In this document: piece by piece, positions 7,369-25,997 of the stretch
How the letters are laid out: each line of letters starts with the position of its first letter
How positions within the stretch are numbered: position 1 is the stretch's first letter
The notes under the pieces: generated by a model
Databases searched by the model: none
What the model was told of the DNA's origin: nothing
What the model saw: only the letters and a program-made list of their open reading frames with translations
Translations under genes and position numbers: made by a program
Source: a virus
DNA length: 32,072 nucleotides
Strand: one strand, 5' to 3'
Virus record (IMG/VR): IMGVR_UViG_3300042868_005847
Span: 1 to 32,072 of that record

Positions 7369-10278
7369 TTATAAAGTGGATAGATTTTTCAATCTTGCTT
7401 GTTTTTGTTGTTCGTTTGTTAAATCATTTGATACAACATATGTCTTAACAATCATTGGATTTTGTTCAGTATTGGTATTAATATTTTTTGGATTGTCAAA
7501 GTTTGCTTGACCTGACGCACCTTTACTGAATGATGTTCCACCACCCGCCATATTCATTGCTGATAATAACGGTGCAAACATTGTAACCGCTCCTCTTGTC
7601 ATTACAGCTTCACCACCCTCAGCATTAATCATTACACCACCACCAGCGTGTCTTGGTCCTTCAATCATACCACCATCACCATAGTTCTTACCATAGTTTG
7701 GTAATGGAGGTTTTGCACCTGCTCCGCCACTATCACCTATTGAACTTGTATATGTTTGTGCATCTATCTTTCTAACGTTTGCAAGACCAGCCACAATTGC
7801 TGCCGCCGCTGCGATGGCTCCCAAAACGGGACCAACTACAGGAATTGCAGCCATTGCCGCATATGCTGATACTGCCGCTTGGAATGTATTAATATACGCT
7901 TGTGCCTTCTGTGCCGCCTTGTTTTTGTAGAAATACTTTTCCTTTATCTTATCTTCTTCCTTCGCTAACTCATCCTTGTTTTTAATTGATTTTTTGGCGT
8001 CCTCTAATTCTTCTGTTTGATTAGCATCATTAATTGCAAGTGCGGCATCAGCCACACCTTTAAATGCGTCAAGACCTTTGGAAACTAATTGTACATAATT
8101 TAAAAATTCTTGATTATCAATATCCTGTCTTAACTTAGCATATTTTTTCTTAATTTGAGTCTTTTGATCTTCAGTTAAGTTTAATTCAGCAAGTTCTCTT
8201 TCTTGTGCCTTTGTCAATATCTCTCTTTGAACATCATAATACTCAGGGAGACCCTCAATCATTGCTGATTTTTTAACCTCAAGGAATTTAAGTTCATCAT
8301 CCAACTTCTTAATCATTGCATCATAATCCGCCTTCGTCTTATCATCGTCAATCTTCTGAAGGTCTCTAGCAAGGATTATTGCTAAGTTTTTAATTGCTGC
8401 ATCATATTGTTCTTGAGTCAAATATTTCTTTTCTAATGCAGATTTTAAATCCTTTTCATCCTCATCATATTTCTTTTTCTTTTCCGTCTTCTCCCTTTCA
8501 GTTGTGTCAGCAATTGCTTGAACCTCAAGGTCATAAGATTTTTTAATATACTCTAATCTTTTATCAGCGTTTTCCTTAACCTTTTCCTCATCTTCTTTGT
8601 TAAACTTATCGGCAAGTTCAATCATCTTAGCACCATACTTCTTATAAATTTGGAGTCTAATTTCTTCTTTTCTTGCCTCAGATATTTCTAACTTATTGAT
8701 TTTTGCAGCCTCATTTTCCGCTTGAATTTTTAATTCTAAGTATTGTCTATCTCTTAAATCTTTTGTATATAATACCTTATTCTCTTGTTGTAACCTTAAT
8801 AATTCAGCGTCTGCTGTTTCATTATCTTGTCTAATTTTATCAAGGTGTCTTCTGTTTTCTTCTTCTAACTTCCTATTTTCTTCATCAATCTTCCTTTGTT
8901 TCTCGTCCGCCTTCTTTTGTCTTAGTGCTTCTGCTTTATCGTTTGCAGTTTGTATTTCTTTATTTCTTTCGGTTATATTGTTATATTCCTTAATCCTAAT
9001 TGCAGAAGATTGATCTTTATATTTTTCTTCAAGTTCAGTTTTTTTCTTTAATGCTCTTTCAATTTGTTTATTATTTTCCTCATCATTCTTTCCTCTATTC
9101 TTATATAAATCTTTAAGAACTTGAACAGTTGCACCTAATTGTTTTGATGTTTCATCTCTTTCTTTTGCTAAAACTTGTACACCCGCGGCTCTAATTTCTT
9201 CTTCACTTTTACCTTGTGCCCTTAATAATGCTAGTCTTTCATCATTTGAACGTTTTAAAGCTTTATTTGATTTTTCATAACTTGAATCCAAATCATCTAA
9301 TGCTTTGGTTAATCTTTTAGTAGAATCCACTGCGTCATCCACACCCGTTACCATATTATAAAAACCTACCGTTACTTTTTTTAATATTTCAAATAACGCA
9401 ACAAAACCTGCAATTATTAAACCAATACCTATGGCCATAAGTGCGGTCTCCAATAGACCAACGGCAACCGTTGCCGCAGTCGCCGATACTCCAACTCCAA
9501 CCAATGCTTGACCAAATAATCTACCAGCAAGTGTTGCGGCACCAAATGTTTGTGCTGTTGTTTTAGTAACTGTAATAAGTCCTTCCTCTGATACAGTTAA
9601 TTGTTGACCTGATTTAACTAAAGATATTTCAGCATCAGTTAATTTTCTTATTTCTTGACCTTTAAGTTGTATGTAAGGTACACCCTTTTTAATAGATGTA
9701 TTAACCTTTTCATTAGTATTTTCTAATTGGTCTAAACCTTTAATTAAACTTGTTGTTTCTTCACTAAATCTATTAAAATTATTTGTTGCTACTGCCGCAT
9801 TTCTTGCGACATTATTAGTAGATTGTGATGCTTCATTTGATGTTTGACTTAATTTACTATTACTATCAGCCAATTCATCTGTGGCCTCCTTAGCACCGAA
9901 TAAATTTCTATATATGTCCTTTAAATCATTTCCAAACTCTTTGAATTGGTTTCCAATATCTTTTATACTAAAACTTGTAAAGGTCTTCATGAGACCAATA
10001 ACACCATTCAATTGACCAAAGAATTGACCAACAGGACCTGGTAGTAAACTAAACGCAGCAAATAAATCTCTTGACTTGGCACTAACCCTATCTAAACCAT
10101 CTTTGGTATCATTTAATCTTGACGCCAATAGTTTAAACTCATCACTACCTTCTTTGGTCTTATTAAGTTCTTTTGTAAGTTCTCTGGCAGCCTGTTTAAG
10201 GTTGAGAGTTTTGTCAATAGCAACATCAATGGCCTTACCATTAATGTCATATATAATTTCAATTTTTTTAACCGCCAT
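7369..10278 (-). CDS. Tail tape measure protein
   Basis: A 969-residue protein, the second longest here. The N-terminus (about 1-200) is helical and dotted with Asn, Ser and Lys. Hydrophobic stretches at about 245-300 (TAATVAVGLLETALMAIGIG) match the membrane-active segment of tape measures. About 320-760 is a long Lys/Glu-rich coiled coil. A second hydrophobic, Ala-rich stretch follows near 800-840 (AAIPVVGPVLGAIAAAAAIV). The C-terminus has GGMIEGPRHAGGGVMINAEGGE, a Gly-rich closing motif I know from Bacteroidetes phage tape measures. The protein sets tail length and passes into the host envelope. The length would suggest a tail of very roughly 145 nm if all of it spans the tube (0.15 nm per residue), so a siphovirus or myovirus. 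It is separated from the chaperone gene by about 12 kb, unlike in lambda. Confidence 0.88.
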   Translation of the reverse strand: MAVKKIEIIYDINGKAIDVAIDKTLNLKQAARELTKELNKTKEGSDEFKLLASRLNDTKDGLDRVSAKSRDLFAAFSLLPGPVGQFFGQLNGVIGLMKTFTSFSIKDIGNQFKEFGNDLKDIYRNLFGAKEATDELADSNSKLSQTSNEASQSTNNVARNAAVATNNFNRFSEETTSLIKGLDQLENTNEKVNTSIKKGVPYIQLKGQEIRKLTDAEISLVKSGQQLTVSEEGLITVTKTTAQTFGAATLAGRLFGQALVGVGVSATAATVAVGLLETALMAIGIGLIIAGFVALFEILKKVTVGFYNMVTGVDDAVDSTKRLTKALDDLDSSYEKSNKALKRSNDERLALLRAQGKSEEEIRAAGVQVLAKERDETSKQLGATVQVLKDLYKNRGKNDEENNKQIERALKKKTELEEKYKDQSSAIRIKEYNNITERNKEIQTANDKAEALRQKKADEKQRKIDEENRKLEEENRRHLDKIRQDNETADAELLRLQQENKVLYTKDLRDRQYLELKIQAENEAAKINKLEISEARKEEIRLQIYKKYGAKMIELADKFNKEDEEKVKENADKRLEYIKKSYDLEVQAIADTTEREKTEKKKKYDEDEKDLKSALEKKYLTQEQYDAAIKNLAIILARDLQKIDDDKTKADYDAMIKKLDDELKFLEVKKSAMIEGLPEYYDVQREILTKAQERELAELNLTEDQKTQIKKKYAKLRQDIDNQEFLNYVQLVSKGLDAFKGVADAALAINDANQTEELEDAKKSIKNKDELAKEEDKIKEKYFYKNKAAQKAQAYINTFQAAVSAYAAMAAIPVVGPVLGAIAAAAAIVAGLANVRKIDAQTYTSSIGDSGGAGAKPPLPNYGKNYGDGGMIEGPRHAGGGVMINAEGGEAVMTRGAVTMFAPLLSAMNMAGGGTSFSKGASGQANFDNPKNINTNTEQNPMIVKTYVVSNDLTNEQQKQARLKNLSTL

Positions 10279-10284
10279 ATTATG

Positions 10285-10485
10285 TTAGTTTAAACTTTCT
10301 TGTTTTTGTTGTTGGAACGCCATATCCAATAATATTTTATCCCCATTTAATAATTTGACATAACTGAAGTTAAGGTCAAAATTTAATAATAAATTTTTTC
10401 TATGTTGGGTTTCTTCAGTAAAATCTTTATACTTTACGTTCTCAATCTCAATCTTATTTTCGTCATTGAATATCTCTATTTTCAT
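10285..10485 (-). CDS. Small hypothetical protein before the tape measure
   Basis: A 66-residue protein beginning MKIEIFNDENKIEIENVKYK. It ends six bases before the tape measure start and is probably co-translated with it. It is a mix of short beta segments and charged helix (GDKILLDMAFQQQKQ). No motif recognised. A minor tail assembly role is suggested only by position. Confidence 0.6.
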   Translation of the reverse strand: MKIEIFNDENKIEIENVKYKDFTEETQHRKNLLLNFDLNFSYVKLLNGDKILLDMAFQQQKQESLN

Positions 10486-10498
10486 ATATATAAATTTT

Positions 10499-10975
10499 TT
10501 AAAGTGTTGAAACTACGTATGTTTGACATACAGGATAAATTGCTCGTTTTCCTATAAATCTTATTTCAAAGTAATATGTACCATTTACAAAGGTTGTTAA
10601 ACCAACCATAGATGGTGTTACGGTGATGGTATTTGACCCCGATACTGTTGTTTGATTAGAATATACAGGACTGACATTATCTACCAATCTCCACGGCTTA
10701 TAATACGTTTGACCACCTGCCATCATATGAACAGATAATACCATTAAATTTCCAGCATCGTTTATGTATCTTTCACCACCATTTGACGCCCAAGTATAAT
10801 TGTGTGTAAAGGTCATACCTGTACTTGTGATACTTGTACCTGTAAAATTGGTTACCGTTCCACTTATACTTATGTCATTTATCTCATGAACAATATAATC
10901 ACCATATTCCGCTAATTCGTTATTTGGAAAAACGAAGTTCTGATTATCAACTTGTCCTATATATCTTATTCCCAT
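10499..10975 (-). CDS. Beta-rich tail-associated hypothetical protein
   Basis: A 158-residue protein starting MGIRYIGQVDNQNFVFPNNE. It is rich in Thr, Ser, Tyr and Val with strand-like runs (SISGTVTNFTGTSITSTG, GTYYFEIRFIGKRAIYP) and has no catalytic motif, so it looks like a small beta-sandwich. It lies between the delta-60 protein and the tape measure, in the tail module. It could be a minor tail, decoration or fibre-tip protein. Its leader carries an element also found before the gene at 22555 (see 10981-11015), so it may start a transcript. Function unknown. Confidence 0.62.
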   Translation of the reverse strand: MGIRYIGQVDNQNFVFPNNELAEYGDYIVHEINDISISGTVTNFTGTSITSTGMTFTHNYTWASNGGERYINDAGNLMVLSVHMMAGGQTYYKPWRLVDNVSPVYSNQTTVSGSNTITVTPSMVGLTTFVNGTYYFEIRFIGKRAIYPVCQTYVVSTL

Positions 10976-19019: not shown

Positions 19020-21515
19020 TTATGATGGGTTTATAATTAAAAATGCTACAGTATCTGTGTCTCCGTTATGGTTTGATGTTATTGTAAATGTATTTGTTCC
19101 TTTTGATGATACAACAACAGGTCCTGCGTTAGGGTGATTGTTAGTTTGTTTAGTTAAGTATATTAAACTATTTGCTGTAACTAAAGTATTTGATACAGTT
19201 GCTGTACCAGGGTTTCCACCATCTAACGCTACTGTTCCCATAGTCTTATTTGAACCTGATGCGAATAATACGTTACCCGATACATTTAATGAACCTGTAA
19301 CAGTTGTGTTACCATTAACATTTAATGAACCTGTTACTTCAACAGGGAATCCCATTTGTATTGGAACGTTTGCTCCTGAACCACTCTTAAATAAATAAGC
19401 ATTTGATTCTGATTGTGATTTGACAACAAAATGTCTATCAACTTGTGGTCCCAAAGAAGATGGCATTTGACCAATTAAAATATTCTGTGAACCACTTATT
19501 ATGTTTTCTGTATTACCAATAATGATATTGATTGAACCTGATTTAAAGTTTCCACCTGTTGGTAATACCAAGAAGTTTTGTGAACCTGTTGAAAACTGTG
19601 AATTAAATCCACCCAATAATATATTGTTTGTTCCGTCTGCGAACTTGTTTTGTGTTCCACTAAATTCACCAATTGCGGTTGTATATTTATTTGCGTTACG
19701 ATATAATGTAACACCTGCTCCAAATCCTATTCTTGTAATATTATCAGTTCCATCATTGAAACCAAGACTCATTGCTCCTGATACATTTAATGAACCTGTG
19801 ATTGTTGTATTATTACCATTGATGTTTAATGAACCTGTGATTGATTGAGTACTACCTGCTGAACCTGTTGTGATTAATCCATTTCTATTTCCATCACCAA
19901 CTGTAACACCATTCAAACTTAATGAACCTGTTATACTTACTGAACCTGTGATTCTTGTATTGTTTGTATTATCAACGTGTATTGCGTTTCTTCTATTACC
20001 TGCTCCTGTTCCTGTTCCTACAACAAATACAGCGTCTTGTGAACTTTCTTGTAATGAACCTGTTGCGTTGAACCTACCAACTATAACTGTACCACCTGCG
20101 GTTGTTGATGTGTTTGATGCTGATACAATTAAACTATCACCTAATACCGCTGTTGATACTAAGTGTCCACCTGTTGAAGTTGAATAATCTGAATTAACCC
20201 TATTATTTATGCCTAATATTGTATTATCATTGAATTGTCTTCTATTAGCACTATTACTACCTGAAACTGTAATAAAGTTTCCAGTACCACCAAATATATT
20301 ACGTTGAACGTTTATGTTATTTACTGCTGCTGAAACTGATGATGAATAGTTATTTTGTACTGTTATACCACCACCAATGTTTTGTTGTAATATTCCTACT
20401 GATGAACTTGCTTGGTTTAATGTTACACCAGCACCACCAATTATATTATTAAAATATTGTGAGTTTGAACTTAATGTTGTTGTATTTGCGTTTGATGTTA
20501 AAGTACCACCAATAATATTATTGTTTAAACTAAGACTACCTGATTGATGGTTTATTACTGTACCACCAATAATTTGGTTGTTTTGAATATTTGGTACTCC
20601 TAATACTGAACTTGTTGTAAATGTTAATGATAATGATCCGTTTAAATTGTTATTTATCATTGTAGGACTTACTAATGATGCGGTGCTTAATGTTGGTATT
20701 GTTGCAACTAAATTATTACCACCAATATAACCATATGAACCTTGTGTGAGTATTGTATTATTTCTTGTTGGGTTCATTATAATATTATTAGAACCACTAA
20801 TAACAATTGAACCTGTTTGGTTTGGTACTGGTCCACCACCATTTAATAAAAAGTTAGATTGTGAAACTGGTGCTGATGATGATATAAGAAATAGTTGCGA
20901 ACCACTTGACCTTGCTTCACTTGTAAAGTTTAATAAACCATTATTAACTGTATTACCAATTAATGAACCTGATATAACTGTATTACCAAGTATTAAACTA
21001 CCTGTAATTACTTGTGTTGTTGATATTGAACCTGTGGTTATAACACCAACTAATGATGGACTAACACCACTTGTTCCTGATGTACCATCTGTTCCTGATG
21101 TACCGCTACTTCCGTCTTGTCCGCTAGTACCTGATGTTCCTGACGTACCATTAGAACCAACCAATCCATCCGAACCACTAGTTCCTGATGTTCCTGAAGT
21201 ACCACCACTTCCACTTACACCTGATGTTCCACTGGTTCCTGAAGAACCAGCAAGACCAGATGTTCCTGATGTACCTGAACTTCCTGCCACACCACTTGTA
21301 CCTGAAGTACCTGATGTTCCGTTTGTAATTGGAACATTGTTTATTGAAAAAGAACCTGAGATGTTTACCTCAGTTAAACTCATCTGTAAAGGTGAATTAT
21401 CTCCATCACCTGTTTGAACGGTTTGTAATGTACCTGTTAATCCATTGGTACTATCGGTCATCTTTAAAAGACCTTGATAGGATTGTGATACGTATAAATT
21501 AGTTAATTGACCCAT
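19020..21515 (-). CDS. Collagen-like tail fibre protein
   Basis: An 831-residue protein. Residues 1-65 form a short head. Residues 66-155 are Gly-X-Y triplets, mostly GTS with GVA, GLA, GSD and GQD variants, typical of phage collagen-like stalks. The rest is built from short beta repeats with NNIIGGT and ITGSLNVNG patterns, which suggests a trimeric beta-helix or YadA-like roll, ending in a compact C-terminal domain (TFTITSNHNGDTDTVAFLII). It is likely a trimeric fibre used in host adsorption. The triplet region produces a long open frame on the other strand (20746-21417), which is a composition artefact. It lies between tail-completion genes, an odd place for a fibre. Confidence 0.85.
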   Translation of the reverse strand: MGQLTNLYVSQSYQGLLKMTDSTNGLTGTLQTVQTGDGDNSPLQMSLTEVNISGSFSINNVPITNGTSGTSGTSGVAGSSGTSGTSGLAGSSGTSGTSGVSGSGGTSGTSGTSGSDGLVGSNGTSGTSGTSGQDGSSGTSGTDGTSGTSGVSPSLVGVITTGSISTTQVITGSLILGNTVISGSLIGNTVNNGLLNFTSEARSSGSQLFLISSSAPVSQSNFLLNGGGPVPNQTGSIVISGSNNIIMNPTRNNTILTQGSYGYIGGNNLVATIPTLSTASLVSPTMINNNLNGSLSLTFTTSSVLGVPNIQNNQIIGGTVINHQSGSLSLNNNIIGGTLTSNANTTTLSSNSQYFNNIIGGAGVTLNQASSSVGILQQNIGGGITVQNNYSSSVSAAVNNINVQRNIFGGTGNFITVSGSNSANRRQFNDNTILGINNRVNSDYSTSTGGHLVSTAVLGDSLIVSASNTSTTAGGTVIVGRFNATGSLQESSQDAVFVVGTGTGAGNRRNAIHVDNTNNTRITGSVSITGSLSLNGVTVGDGNRNGLITTGSAGSTQSITGSLNINGNNTTITGSLNVSGAMSLGFNDGTDNITRIGFGAGVTLYRNANKYTTAIGEFSGTQNKFADGTNNILLGGFNSQFSTGSQNFLVLPTGGNFKSGSINIIIGNTENIISGSQNILIGQMPSSLGPQVDRHFVVKSQSESNAYLFKSGSGANVPIQMGFPVEVTGSLNVNGNTTVTGSLNVSGNVLFASGSNKTMGTVALDGGNPGTATVSNTLVTANSLIYLTKQTNNHPNAGPVVVSSKGTNTFTITSNHNGDTDTVAFLIINPS

Positions 21516-21535: not shown

Positions 21536-22555
21536 TTAAGTGTTTTCCCAATCTGTATTAACGTTCTTCCAAAGTTCAGCAAGTTCACTCCATGTACTAC
21601 CAGGTATAAATGGTAATATAGGAAGTACACATCTATCGTACGCAAATTTCTGTACAAAGTGAAAGTCTAATATCCATCCTGAAAGAATTGTTTCTGTCTT
21701 CTCATAGAATGGTTGTGCTGTTGCGTCCCATCCTGCTTCAAAGTCTGACAAATACAACTTAGCAAAAAAGTCTTTTACTATTTCTAATTGGTCAGACAAT
21801 ACATCCTGTTGATTTGAAATATCGTTATTTAGTTTATCTACAAAGAACACTTTCCATCCTACGTGTATTAAACCTGTTTCAAAATGTGTTGATTCAGGCA
21901 TTACATACATACGAGGATATTCAGGTTCCTGTTTTGTTATTATATCGTTTGTTAATTGTTCTACGTCACCAAATCCATAAGAATTAATTTGTTGATGTGC
22001 ATCTGCAAACTCTTCAAATTTATTTAAAATGAATTGGTAACTTGTGAATTGTTCATCTTCAGGGAATTGGAAGTTACCAACTACTGGTGGTGTACAACTG
22101 TTATAATCAAACCCTACTTCAAATGATAAGTTTAATGTCCATCCACCCAAAGTTGTCTCAAACCTTTCAAGGAATGGAATAACATCAGGTCTTTGTTCTA
22201 CAACCAAATCCCAACTAAAGTCTCCTTGTGCTGCTGTGAATGATTGTAATATAACTGTCCAAATATCTTTAACAATCTCCAAAGTATCAGACATTACCTC
22301 ACTTTGGTTTGATTGGTCATCTTCAACTCTATCCATAATAATAATGGATAAACGATAGATTAAACGATTCTCGTCTAATTTAACTTCACCAGGTACAATA
22401 TACATTCTTGTATATTTGGGTTCCTGTTTGGTTGTTAGGTCATTTGTACACTGCGCAAGGTCACCAAACCCGAAAGATTTAATCTGTTCGTGATTGTATG
22501 CTATTGAACTGAAGTACGTTAATAACTGTTTATAATTAATTGAACTTGTATTCAT
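21536..22555 (-). CDS. Tail-completion-like protein, internal tandem duplication
   Basis: A 339-residue protein made of two related halves. Half one (about 1-157) has SFGFGDLAQCTNDLTTKQEP and VMSDTLEIVKDIW; half two (about 165-318) has SYGFGDVEQLTNDIITKQEP and VLSDQLEIVKDFF in the same order and spacing. Each half resembles a single-domain protein I recall from Bacteroidetes phages, with the size expected for a tail terminator or tail-completion protein. The gp10-like neck gene nearby supports that role, but the family has no firm name to me. Both halves keep the motifs, so neither looks decayed. A fused dimer could halve the subunit number in a ring. Confidence 0.7.
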   Translation of the reverse strand: MNTSSINYKQLLTYFSSIAYNHEQIKSFGFGDLAQCTNDLTTKQEPKYTRMYIVPGEVKLDENRLIYRLSIIIMDRVEDDQSNQSEVMSDTLEIVKDIWTVILQSFTAAQGDFSWDLVVEQRPDVIPFLERFETTLGGWTLNLSFEVGFDYNSCTPPVVGNFQFPEDEQFTSYQFILNKFEEFADAHQQINSYGFGDVEQLTNDIITKQEPEYPRMYVMPESTHFETGLIHVGWKVFFVDKLNNDISNQQDVLSDQLEIVKDFFAKLYLSDFEAGWDATAQPFYEKTETILSGWILDFHFVQKFAYDRCVLPILPFIPGSTWSELAELWKNVNTDWENT

Positions 22556-22562
22556 CTACTTT

Positions 22563-22597
22563 TAAATATAAAATAATCTAAAACGTTATTTGAAATT
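22563..22597 (-). promoter_or_regulatory. Candidate late promoter, copy 1
   Basis: On the minus strand AATTTCAAATAACG (22597-22584), 13 bases, then TATATTTA (22570-22563), seven bases before the ATG at 22555. It matches 10981-11015 exactly in the two elements and the spacing. See that entry for the alternative reading. Confidence 0.45.
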
Positions 22598-22892
22598 ATA
22601 CCATCTCCCCATTGGCCTTCTTCATTAATCTCTGTTGTTCTTCGTCATATTGAATTAAGAAGGATAATTGGTTGAGAACTTCCATTATTTTTTTATTGAA
22701 GATGTACTCATGCTTTGTAAAGTCATTTCCAGCAATTCTGTTGACGACAAGGAACCAACCGTAGACTTTCTGAAAACTATTGCCCATATCAGTTTCCTCA
22801 TCTTCCATGTGAGTTTGATTTTGGTCCACATCGAAATTTTCGGGATCGAAGACAGCCGGGAATAACTTAAAAATTTGTTTGCGTAGTTGATA
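22596..22892 (-). CDS. Tail assembly chaperone, -1 frame extension (T-like)
   Basis: This frame lies at -1 to the 22685-23416 gene and is open from upstream of the U9 run to a TAA at 22596. A slip at 22892-22900 would join residue 175 of that gene to 98 more residues (YQLRKQIFKLFPAVFDPENF and onward), giving a 273-residue fusion. The extension is acidic then helical, with GWFLVVNRIAGNDFTKHEYI and LSFLIQYDEEQQRL, a pattern I recall from the C-terminal part of related phage proteins. That similarity argues that this frame is the conserved one. Initiation at the GTG at 22829 (77 residues) is possible but less attractive. Whether the shift is programmed or a homopolymer error cannot be settled here. 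Confidence 0.7.
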   Translation of the reverse strand, partial: YQLRKQIFKLFPAVFDPENFDVDQNQTHMEDEETDMGNSFQKVYGWFLVVNRIAGNDFTKHEYIFNKKIMEVLNQLSFLIQYDEEQQRLMKKANGEMV

Positions 22893-23416
22893 AAAAAAAA
22901 CTGTGCTCCAAGTATATACTTCACATCTAATTTGGTTTTGAACAATTCGGCTCGTTCTTCCATCTTCTTTAAATCATATTTTTCAATGTCAAAGTCGTGT
23001 TTGGACCTTTCGTGAATAATTGGTCTATACATAATTGATGCTAGTATGTGTAACATATTCAATAGGTCATCCGCCTTCTTCGTTGAGATGGTATCCATAT
23101 CCACAAATTCAGCAAAGGTTAAATCCTTCCAATTTGGAAAGAACCCATAATGAACCCCATCAATTTCAAACCTATCTTTAAATTCAGGTTTATCAACAGG
23201 TATTAATGACATTACATATGCTGCCAAATAACTTACTTCCTGATAATCAGATTCTAATAAATCCTCAACCTTTGCTCCACTTACTATGTTTAATAGTTTT
23301 GCTGCAAAATAATCCTCAGAGAATAAATCTCTAATCTTAAATATCTTAGTGTAATTCTCAATTGATATAAAGTCAGGGACATTATATTCTACTTCATCTA
23401 TTTTAAATTTAATCAT
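22685..23416 (-). CDS. Tail assembly chaperone-like protein, zero frame (G-like)
   Basis: A 243-residue protein. Residues 1-175 (MIKFKIDEVEYNVPDFISIE, WKDLTFAEFVDMDTISTKK, MLHILASIMYRPI) look like a conserved phage protein I recall from Bacteroidetes phages. After the UUU UUU UUU codons at residues 173-175 the zero frame continues for 68 residues that are basic, Ser-rich and unlike the first part. The -1 frame is open across the same region. This is the arrangement of the lambda G/GT tail chaperones, which bind the tape measure before tube assembly. Here it follows large terminase rather than lying next to the tape measure. The function is inferred from architecture. Confidence 0.72.
   Translation of the reverse strand: MIKFKIDEVEYNVPDFISIENYTKIFKIRDLFSEDYFAAKLLNIVSGAKVEDLLESDYQEVSYLAAYVMSLIPVDKPEFKDRFEIDGVHYGFFPNWKDLTFAEFVDMDTISTKKADDLLNMLHILASIMYRPIIHERSKHDFDIEKYDLKKMEERAELFKTKLDVKYILGAQFFFINYANKFLSYSRLSSIPKISMWTKIKLTWKMRKLIWAIVFRKSTVGSLSSTELLEMTLQSMSTSSIKK
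22892..22900 (-). promoter_or_regulatory. Probable -1 ribosomal frameshift site (U9)
   Basis: Nine consecutive T on the minus strand are read CAG TTT TTT TTT ATC in the zero frame. They contain the slippery heptamer U UUU UUU in the correct register. A -1 slip continues as TAT CAA CTA in the open -1 frame. A one-base deletion error in the assembled homopolymer would look the same. Confidence 0.65.
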
Positions 23417-23431
23417 ATATGTATATATATT

Positions 23432-24763
23432 TTATCCTACGAATGCAATGGAATATCTTCCTGTTGTTTTCATATTCTTTATTTCAAAGTACATTCTCAT
23501 TGCCACCGCATCACTTAAATCGGGTGACTTACCAAGAACTTTCTTCATTTCATCCTTTGATATTATTGCTACCTTATTATCCTTATCAACATCTTTTAAT
23601 TTAACCGCAAGTAATTCCTGTGTTAATTCATCCACCGTTGATGGTTCCATTATATTAATACTTATTTTCCCTTCTTTAAATAGTTCCGATAGTTTTACAT
23701 AACATTGGGATTTTAAATTACTAAAGTTTTGGTCGTGTAATGGTCTTGCATTGTTCACAAAGTTGGTTCCTCTAATCTGGTCCGCAACTCCGCCTCCAAC
23801 TCCATCACTATCCACAATTACATTATTTGGGTGTACACCGTATTTCTGTATTAGTTCCCTTATTTCGGACGATAAATCTGTGGTTGATAGTTTGGTATAG
23901 ACATACACTTCCAAGACCACCAGTCCACTCCAAACAACCGCAACGGACCTGTCTGAACCAAATCTTGCTACGTCCACTGAGATATACTTCTTATCTGTTG
24001 GTTGTGGTGATAATTTAAACATACTATTGGATATACTATCAAAGTCAAAAATATTATCTGACTCATCCATATAATTCCAATCCCCTTCCAATAATCTCTT
24101 TCTTTGTTGCGGTGGTAATGACTTTAACATCTCAATATAAGATGCTGGTAAGTGTGGGTTGTCAAGGGGTAGCGCAGGAACAAACGCCATATTGTCTGGC
24201 AAGGTTTCCTGAATGTACGGAAGATAGAAAACTTTCTTCAACCAAACTTGGCCAGGATTGCAAGTAAGAAGTAATTTTGGTGCCAGACAATATTGGTCTA
24301 ACTTAAATCTCATACGAGACTTGAGGATATTGTATGCAAGTTGTGATATTTGTGCTGCCTCATCAACAAATACTGCTGTAAGTTCCAAACCCCCTAATGA
24401 ATCAAAGTTTGGGTCCGATGGTTGGTACTGTAAATCTTTTAATACTATCTCAGACTTGTTTGTGAATGTAATTACATTTGATTGTCCGTTATATACATAA
24501 TGTTCCCCTGACTTTAATCCCATCGATTGTAGAGTTTCAAATAATGTATTGAGTGTGGTTAGTTTTAATTGTTGTAATACTGTTCTACCAATCAAACATC
24601 TAATCCCTGCGTATTTTAAACATAATGTACTAATCCAAAGACAACCTATAAAGGATTTACCAGCACCGGCGGATCCTCCGTATAATACTTCGTTAGTTGT
24701 ATCATCCATTAAGAGTTTCCACGCTTGTGATTGTTTCTTAGTTAGATTTATGTTTACCTCCAT
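23432..24763 (-). CDS. terL: Terminase large subunit
   Basis: A 443-residue protein from ATG at 24763; the longer frame from 24796 adds 11 residues of unlikely sequence. Walker A is GGSAGAGKS at residues 29-37, and Walker B is VFVDEA at 131-136 with the catalytic Glu135. The C-terminal nuclease has DVARFGSDRSV, VIVDSDGVGGG and PDLSDAVAMRM, carrying the acidic metal ligands expected of a RNase H-like terminase nuclease. The protein pumps DNA into the procapsid and cuts it. Two copies of a 13-bp motif in opposite orientation lie inside the gene (24189-24201 and 24281-24293). Small terminase precedes it by about 57 bases. Confidence 0.93.
   Translation of the reverse strand: MEVNINLTKKQSQAWKLLMDDTTNEVLYGGSAGAGKSFIGCLWISTLCLKYAGIRCLIGRTVLQQLKLTTLNTLFETLQSMGLKSGEHYVYNGQSNVITFTNKSEIVLKDLQYQPSDPNFDSLGGLELTAVFVDEAAQISQLAYNILKSRMRFKLDQYCLAPKLLLTCNPGQVWLKKVFYLPYIQETLPDNMAFVPALPLDNPHLPASYIEMLKSLPPQQRKRLLEGDWNYMDESDNIFDFDSISNSMFKLSPQPTDKKYISVDVARFGSDRSVAVVWSGLVVLEVYVYTKLSTTDLSSEIRELIQKYGVHPNNVIVDSDGVGGGVADQIRGTNFVNNARPLHDQNFSNLKSQCYVKLSELFKEGKISINIMEPSTVDELTQELLAVKLKDVDKDNKVAIISKDEMKKVLGKSPDLSDAVAMRMYFEIKNMKTTGRYSIAFVG
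24189..24201 (-). repeat. 13-bp motif, inverted copy in terL
   Basis: ATATTGTCTGGCA on the plus strand, the reverse complement of TGCCAGACAATAT at 24281-24293 and 31524-31536. In the protein it covers LPDNM, in a different reading frame from the other terL copy, so shared codons do not explain it. Confidence 0.7.
24281..24293 (+). repeat. 13-bp motif, direct copy in terL
   Basis: TGCCAGACAATAT, identical to the core of the tandem array at 31524-31566 and inverted relative to 24189-24201, with 79 bases between the two terL copies. It covers YCLA in the protein. Confidence 0.7.
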
Positions 24764-24820
24764 ATATATGTATATAAATTCCCAAAAACGAAACATTACT
24801 TTCGTCTATGATAAATTTTT

Positions 24821-25213
24821 TTATTCTGTAATATTAATATTAATAGAAATAGTTTCACCATTTGAAGTTAGGTCAACTTTCTTTGGTGCCTCCATTCCTA
24901 ATATCTTTGTTATGTCTCTGAGAACTTCCGACTCAATCCTTCTATTACCTTGTAGTCTACAACGATTTAAAAGGTCATACAGACGATTTAATTGTTCGGT
25001 TAGTATTTCCTCTTGGTTCTGACTATATCGTTCCTTCAGACGGTTCCTAACATCCTTCCAAACGTTTTCTGCTTGTCTTGTTGTTATATCAAATTCCTGT
25101 GCGAACTGTTTCTTAAATTCATCATATGATTTTTTCTCATATAACATTAACTCAAAGGCACGTTCCATCCTTTGTTCATATTCTAATTCGTTTGCTTTGT
25201 TTTCCTTGCTCAT
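24821..25213 (-). CDS. terS: Terminase small subunit
   Basis: A 130-residue protein immediately before terL. The N-terminal half is helical with a likely DNA-binding helix-turn-helix (FAQEFDITTRQAENVWKDVR). The middle (EQLNRLYDLLNRCRLQGNRR, IESEVLRDITKILGMEAPKK) is the oligomerisation helix pattern I know from Bacteroidetes phage small terminases, and the end (GETISININITE) is a short strand as in that group. Small terminase recognises the packaging start and recruits TerL. Its start overlaps the stop of the upstream gene by four bases (ATGA). Confidence 0.82.
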   Translation of the reverse strand: MSKENKANELEYEQRMERAFELMLYEKKSYDEFKKQFAQEFDITTRQAENVWKDVRNRLKERYSQNQEEILTEQLNRLYDLLNRCRLQGNRRIESEVLRDITKILGMEAPKKVDLTSNGETISININITE

Positions 25214-25566
25214 AATAATCCGATGTTTTTTAAGTGAAAGGTAAATCTTCTTGCTTGACCTTTACCACATCCTCCACAGTTAAATATAAATTCTTCACCG
25301 AACAGTGCCTGATATACCTTGTTGATAAACTCCTTTTTGTCTTCCTTCACTCCACCGAATGATGTTAGTTCAGCGTATGCGAGTATAATATCATCCTTTG
25401 TTGGAATATATATTTCTTCTTCCAACTCAAATGGTAGTGGTATATTTTCTACCACAACCTCTTTTGGTTTCTTACAACTCTTACATCCTCTCTTTTGTTT
25501 ACCAGGATTTTCTATTGAGTTTTGTTTTAACTTTTCTAATCTATCCGTACTTCCGAGTTTGTCCAT
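25210..25566 (-). CDS. Small Cys-motif hypothetical protein
   Basis: A 118-residue protein with two Cys pairs, CKSC near residue 28 and CGGC near residue 97, the second followed by GKGQARRFTFHL. The pairs are about 70 residues apart and could form one metal site. The middle (DIILAYAELTSFGGVKEDKK) looks helical. It overlaps the small terminase start. I recall similar short proteins before terminase genes in Bacteroidetes phages, without a known function. A role in packaging or head assembly would be a guess. Confidence 0.65.
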   Translation of the reverse strand: MDKLGSTDRLEKLKQNSIENPGKQKRGCKSCKKPKEVVVENIPLPFELEEEIYIPTKDDIILAYAELTSFGGVKEDKKEFINKVYQALFGEEFIFNCGGCGKGQARRFTFHLKNIGLL

Positions 25567-25569
25567 GTT

Positions 25570-25776
25570 TTAGTTCTTAGTTTGTCCACCATTCCAATTA
25601 TTTAACTCTTGTGCTAATAGTTCATCAGGAGTTTGTGGAATTGGTTCTATTATATCTATGTTATTATACCAATCTTTTGTTTCAGGAACCATTTCAACCT
25701 TTGGTATTTCTATTAATTGTGGTTGAGAATCTGATACTACAACAGGTTCTTTTCGTTTTTTACATCCACATCCCAT
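25570..25776 (-). CDS. Short MGCGCKKR-type hypothetical protein
   Basis: A 68-residue protein starting MGCGCKKRKEP, with the only Cys pair at residues 3-5 and a basic patch next to it. The rest is acidic and Pro-rich (QLIEIPKVEMVPETKDW), probably disordered. It overlaps the upstream gene by 40 bases in another frame and stops three bases before the next start. The N-terminal CxC could bind metal or be modified. Function unknown. Confidence 0.6.
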   Translation of the reverse strand: MGCGCKKRKEPVVVSDSQPQLIEIPKVEMVPETKDWYNNIDIIEPIPQTPDELLAQELNNWNGGQTKN

Positions 25777-25997
25777 GATAATGTATTTTGTTCTTCTCCT
25801 TCGATTATGACAGTATTTTCTCTATTGATTCTTTCTTGTTCTCTTTGTTTTAACATTACATCATATAGTTCAAGTAACTGTTGTCTTTCTTCAGGAGTAT
25901 GTTTATTTATCTGTTCCATCGTTTCTCTTTGAATCTTTAGGAACAACTTCTTTGATTCTCTTTCTTGGAATCTTTTGTTTCTTCTATCTATACCCAT
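25737..25997 (-). CDS. Small charged helical hypothetical protein
   Basis: An 86-residue protein starting MGIDRRNKRFQERESKK. Most of it is one long charged helix (RQQLLELYDVMLKQREQER), followed by an acidic tail. It starts two bases after the sigma-like gene stop and overlaps the next gene by 40 bases. No recognised motif. The basic helix could bind nucleic acid, but that is only an impression. Confidence 0.6.
   Translation of the reverse strand: MGIDRRNKRFQERESKKLFLKIQRETMEQINKHTPEERQQLLELYDVMLKQREQERINRENTVIIEGEEQNTLSWDVDVKNEKNLL

Follow-up and report, generated by a model that had tools for sequence, protein, structure and literature searches.

The window analysed here, a virus record of 32 kb in IMG/VR, contains a gene that carries a T run, lies next to terL and apparently gives two products, its translation being apparently meant to slip back by one base. 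The frameshift gene and its parts, terL, the phrog_30964-like gene and the tape measure gene are all on the minus strand. The zero-frame ORF (22685..23416) encodes a short product of 243 aa, composed of an N domain (codons 1-175, 22892..23416; alpha/beta model, pLDDT 89) that is common to both products, followed by a basic tail of 68 codons past the T run. The run itself is a T9 (U9 in the mRNA) at 22892..22900, where codons 173-175 read TTT TTT TTT. Within it, the third base of codon 173 and codons 174-175 form the slippery heptamer U_UUU_UUU (22892..22898), in the phase of ribosomal -1 slippage. Upstream of a point some 24-27 codons ahead of the site the -1 frame is closed and, further up, full of stops; through the site it is open. 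Beyond it, the -1 C-terminal tail (22596..22892, 98 codons and a stop at 22598-22596) opens with a TAT that shares the last T of the run, reads YQLRKQIFKLFP...GWFLVVNRIAGND... and has a homologous tail in phage P12024L. The resulting fusion product comprises 273 aa, and the zero-frame tail overlies the -1 tail in a doubly read region (22685..22891) that is probably dual-coding. A preliminary description of the locus had placed the zero frame at 22685-23416 with TTT TTT TTT at 22900-22892, and the -1 frame as open across the run to 22596 with a 273-residue fusion, all of which proved exact.

The frameshift gene holds a strict place in the structural gene cluster. Directly upstream lies the gene for the terminase large subunit, terL (23432..24796), which precedes it in 155 of 156 testable relatives, while a phrog_30964-like gene (21536..22555), the counterpart of P12024L gp42, follows it in all 140 testable relatives. 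The latter apparently contains an internal duplication: its 339-aa product appears to be a phrog_30964-like unit duplicated in tandem, gp42 of P12024L being a single unit of 138 aa. The tape measure protein gene (7369..10278; phrog_9483, E 9.7e-10) is located 12 kb downstream, bearing out the earlier statement that the T-run gene follows terL and sits 12 kb from the tape measure. Elsewhere in the window, two small genes upstream of terL (25210-25566 and 25737-25997) each carry A_AAA_AAC in phase close to the 3' end, the -1 frame of each extending into the following gene, an overlap that may be due to chance. Furthermore, 19020-21515 encodes a tail-fibre-like protein whose final 87 residues match a PHROG called polysaccharide deacetylase at its end. 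This phage probably infects a Flavobacteriia host, given that its terL is nearest to that of Flavobacterium phage 11b (47%) and that its gene set matches that of the Nonlabens phages P12024L/S.

Relatives were collected by scanning IMG/VR with the fusion protein, which yielded 72 relatives, and by profile searches that widened this first set to 111 distinct loci. Further searches, started from the cultured P12024L and from L068, the member that diverges most, gave 58 distinct loci, down to 25-30% identity; a search of genome contigs gave no match. The N and C parts stand in the -1 relation at all 111 distinct loci of the first set and at all 58 of the more distant ones, and after removal of duplicates the in-phase U_UUU_UUU is present at every one of 148 distinct sites. 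Among these sites the run is T9 at 128, T7 at 17 and T10 at three, T8 being absent. It is clear that the frameshift arrangement is far beyond chance. Homologues with a 10-T run joining both parts into one uninterrupted frame had been named beforehand as what would overturn programmed recoding; the three T10 sites still keep the -1 relation. The alignment of homologues proposed in the preliminary description revealed the same relation and both frames retained around the run in relatives, and this conservation strongly backs its claim that the U run is a site of programmed -1 recoding. U9 itself, named there as the site, is indeed the run in the window, but the essential element is U_UUU_UUU.

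Homopolymers are in general error-prone, and the two frames could in principle be the product of a sequencing or assembly error in the run. This explanation was rejected as having a negligible probability, as the frame relation is shared by eight near-identical contigs of other records and by all divergent relatives, including those with T7 sites, which are short runs. It is also highly improbable, if less extremely so, that the -1 tail is a separate gene with an internal start, as the annotation of P12024L gp41 has it. Start codons do exist in the -1 frame (ATG in P12024L, GTG at 22829 in the window); however, the first start falls at approximately codon 21 of the tail in most relatives, and a separate gene would leave the heptamer without reason to be invariant. 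The invariant residues of the -1 tail are R4, P12, F15, G45, W46, N51, D57, H61, E71, N74 and Q75, some of which come after the site but before any possible -1 start, implying that the tail is made as part of a fusion.

The conservation of the two tails was compared in the overlap, where mean identity is 0.56 for the -1 product and 0.49 for the zero-frame tail. The earlier impression that the -1 product looks the more conserved therefore holds, but the zero-frame tail is not junk, as it is open in every relative examined. From codon 173 the zero frame remains open for 65-75 codons with a near-constant stop in all 47 distinct relatives of the window clade, and past the site it is open for 55-97 codons in most clades. 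The tail ranges from 16 to 97 codons between clades and is nearly fixed within each; in P12024L it has 25 codons, a length at which openness is unremarkable. When the -1 frame was randomly recoded with synonymous codons, the zero frame was kept open with a mean probability of 0.0024 per sequence in the window clade, and of 7e-4, 5e-4 and 3e-5 in three further sets, figures that are not to be multiplied since the sequences are related. Synonymous codon identity in the overlap was 1.12 times the expectation from the N region (bootstrap 1.08-1.16), falling to 0.86 (0.81-0.91) just past the zero-frame stop. The open zero frame, together with reduced synonymous change that ends at its stop, indicates that the overlap is probably dual-coding. 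Alternatively, selection may act on the openness of the zero frame rather than on the sequence of its tail, so that ribosomes remain on the mRNA until shortly before the next gene. Regarding charge, the mean net value is +10.6 for zero-frame tails, which are basic, and -4.8 for the acidic -1 tails, a contrast that follows in part from the frame relation.

The proposed process is as follows. Most ribosomes would read straight through U9 and produce the 243-aa protein, while a minority would slip by -1 on U_UUU_UUU, with tRNA-Phe re-pairing in the P and A sites, to produce the 273-aa protein, whose N domain would be that of the shorter form and whose C-terminal domain would differ. The sequence of the site in relatives fits such a slip. 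Codon 173 occurs as TTT, ACT, TCT, AGT, CGT, CAT or CTT, so that bases 1 and 2 vary and base 3 is always T, even though NNT codons are rare for some of the residues concerned (Thr 17%, Arg 5%, Leu 8%). Codon 173 drifted in this way in several lineages: over a tree built from 94 proteins, seven changes of the T9 label were counted, at least five of them forced. Codons 174-175 are never TTC, although TTC makes up 29% of the Phe codons of the N region. The P12024L clade has its run in a different codon phase (NTT TTT TTT TAT), with the same heptamer in phase. The retained T at base 3, the absence of TTC from codons 174-175 and the heptamer kept in phase despite the shifted run together favour slippage of tRNA-Phe on the ribosome.

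The same fusion would arise by normal translation if RNA polymerase slipped on the T run and added one U to a fraction of transcripts. T9 is found at the great majority of sites and in both main clades despite their differing codon phase (TTT TTT TTT A versus NTT TTT TTT TAT). In many bacteria, selection against A/T slippage becomes visible at a run length of nine (PMC1088944). Long runs are otherwise avoided in the genome: the frameshift site is the single run of nine T or A in the window, where dinucleotide shuffles predict 5.8. However, polymerase slippage would call for a run of at least about nine A/T at every site where the alternative frame is read, and T7 occurs at 17 of 148 sites, although slippage on shorter runs is possible in some bacteria (PMC1088944). 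The T7 sites arose independently in several lineages with the -1 frame conserved, always as NNT TTT TTT, the one phase that the ribosome requires, which favours ribosomal -1 frameshifting. Moreover, T8 is missing although it should slip better than T7, and the third-base T is maintained against codon usage. Polymerase slippage is accordingly considered unlikely, and the share of probability left to it reflects the predominance of T9 and the usual threshold of nine. We infer that the slip is made by the ribosome rather than by RNA polymerase. Against this reading, U_UUU_UUU is far less shift-prone than A_AAA_AAG in E. coli (PMC5009743).

Elements that might stimulate ribosomal frameshifting were searched for on both sides of the site. 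An SD-like sequence was observed upstream at 74 of 109 sites, in comparison with 8.6% elsewhere, but this candidate was rejected, as conserved Gly-Ala-Gln residues and codon usage predict 73.9. Downstream, hairpin z-scores resembled those of an upstream control, and RNAalifold returned no conserved pairs in models without explicit pseudoknots. Thus, a stimulator, which is usual but not obligatory in -1 frameshift genes, was seen neither as an SD excess nor as a conserved fold, while two other features of such genes are present, namely an X_XXY_YYZ heptamer in zero-frame phase and a -1 frame that is open and conserved as protein. It should be noted that Bacteroidia ribosomes do not recognise SD (PMC9976891) and that in E. 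coli many heptamers shift at a low level without stimulators (PMC4066793). The further proposal of a long, conserved dual-coding overlap of 55-97 codons, with both tails selected and of opposite charge, made by stimulator-free -1 frameshifting on ribosomes that ignore SD, is put forward tentatively, and we hold it to be rather doubtful in its full extent.

As for function, the products are fairly probably tail-assembly chaperones, the analogue of G/GT in a displaced position. This best guess is based on the G/GT-like architecture and the presence of a tape measure gene. In a long-tailed phage of Flavobacteriia, the short form would coat the tape measure, as lambda gpG does, and the rarer long form would recruit the tail tube, as does lambda gpGT; the gene would have moved from its customary position ahead of the tape measure gene to one beside terL. 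The arrangement of two products with a frameshift in the 3' part is present at the level of the genes, as distinct from expression, but the gene is not directly upstream of the tape measure gene. A second frameshift gene was looked for right before the tape measure and none was seen, and scanning the window and P12024L revealed no other sizeable structural gene that has an in-phase slippery site and its own long extension in the -1 frame. No named family emerged from searches of Pfam, NCBIfam, PHROGs and PDB: Pfam Phage_TAC_19 matched one of 41 members weakly (E 0.12), and tail-chaperone matches in BFVD were likewise weak (E 0.18). The N and C domains were folded separately as models; that of the N domain is confident (pLDDT 89) and resembles many uncharacterised phage proteins, such as P12024S I6R9M9, while Foldseek found no match in PDB. 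The label "tail-chaperone-like" given at the outset is therefore apt as to architecture, whereas the position beside terL and the searches by sequence and fold do not establish membership.

The recoding may also be real in a protein of another kind, whose two forms would serve as a head-tail connector, as a neck factor or in association with packaging. The gene always lies between terL and a gene whose neighbour in P12024L, gp43, weakly resembles neck or tail-completion proteins, and six of 41 members weakly match the head-tail adaptor phrog_187 (best E 0.0061). These matches are marginal, however; two-form frameshift genes of long-tailed phages are classically tail chaperones, and a distant relative of the N domain in Duneviridae is separated by no more than a few genes from the tape measure gene that follows it. 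This role is possible, if somewhat unlikely. Taken as a whole, a two-product gene that works by a ribosomal -1 slip and encodes displaced tail-assembly chaperones is regarded as moderately probable.

No recoding gene of such a kind has been described in Bacteroidota phages in the literature searched. The gene would constitute a family-wide case in these phages, and the cultured members P12024L/S make testing possible. If the slip is ribosomal, -1 frameshifting occurs where ribosomes ignore SD and no structure is seen, so that the minimum signal can be asked about directly. The two-gene calls of the P12024L/S type are corrected to one frameshift gene. The constraint seen on the zero-frame tail suggests that in such pairs the "short" product, too, can carry a C-terminal part of its own.

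Comparison with known systems places these features in context. The transcriptional slippage genes with 9A/9T (IS elements, Thermus dnaX) likewise combine a nine-base run with an alternative frame; unlike them, the window family uses T7 in several lineages with the codon phase fixed. In Duneviridae (23T, FPSV-F7, laban6-1, Ingeline), a protein of 293-301 aa encoded near the tape measure gene has a weak profile match to the N domain (hhalign E 8e-4, L-AIMYR region), but it is read in a single unbroken frame and comparison of the C domain gave no match (E 0.48). The fold of the N domain matches that of Flavobacterium phage 6H at a TM of only 0.35; 6H was dropped as a frameshift relative because its orthologues have one frame. 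Its 191-aa ORF (6H 10352-10927) is truncated relative to the intact 293-aa orthologues in 23T and FPSV-F7, which may be a genuine disruption or stem from a sequencing difference. In lambda G/GT, a 3'-proximal -1 shift gives two C-termini, and tails need the G and GT products at a ratio of 30:1 (PMC5009743). The window gene resembles gpG/gpGT as one gene with a common N domain and a -1 shift leading to a longer product that ends in a C domain of its own, in a phage with a tape measure gene. It differs in the slip site U_UUU_UUU and in lying next to terL, at a distance of 12 kb from the tape measure, and no link to the lambda proteins was found in sequence or fold. The preliminary view that the locus copies the G/GT layout is thus right as to the -1 shift in the 3' part and the two C-termini, but not as to the zero-frame tail, which in most clades continues for 55-97 codons beyond the site and is under constraint, unlike lambda G. 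The Nonlabens phages (Inhavirus) P12024L (gp40 and gp41) and P12024S (gp38 and gp39) possess homologous N and C domains. They are annotated with two hypothetical genes, and their zero-frame tail has just 25 codons, unlike the window. In P12024L (JQ823123, 23946-24640), gp40 and gp41 represent a single frameshift gene, read in two frames and containing a T9 site, likewise gp38 and gp39 of P12024S, and both phages share with the window the T9, the in-phase heptamer, the -1 relation, terL before the gene and phrog_30964 after it.
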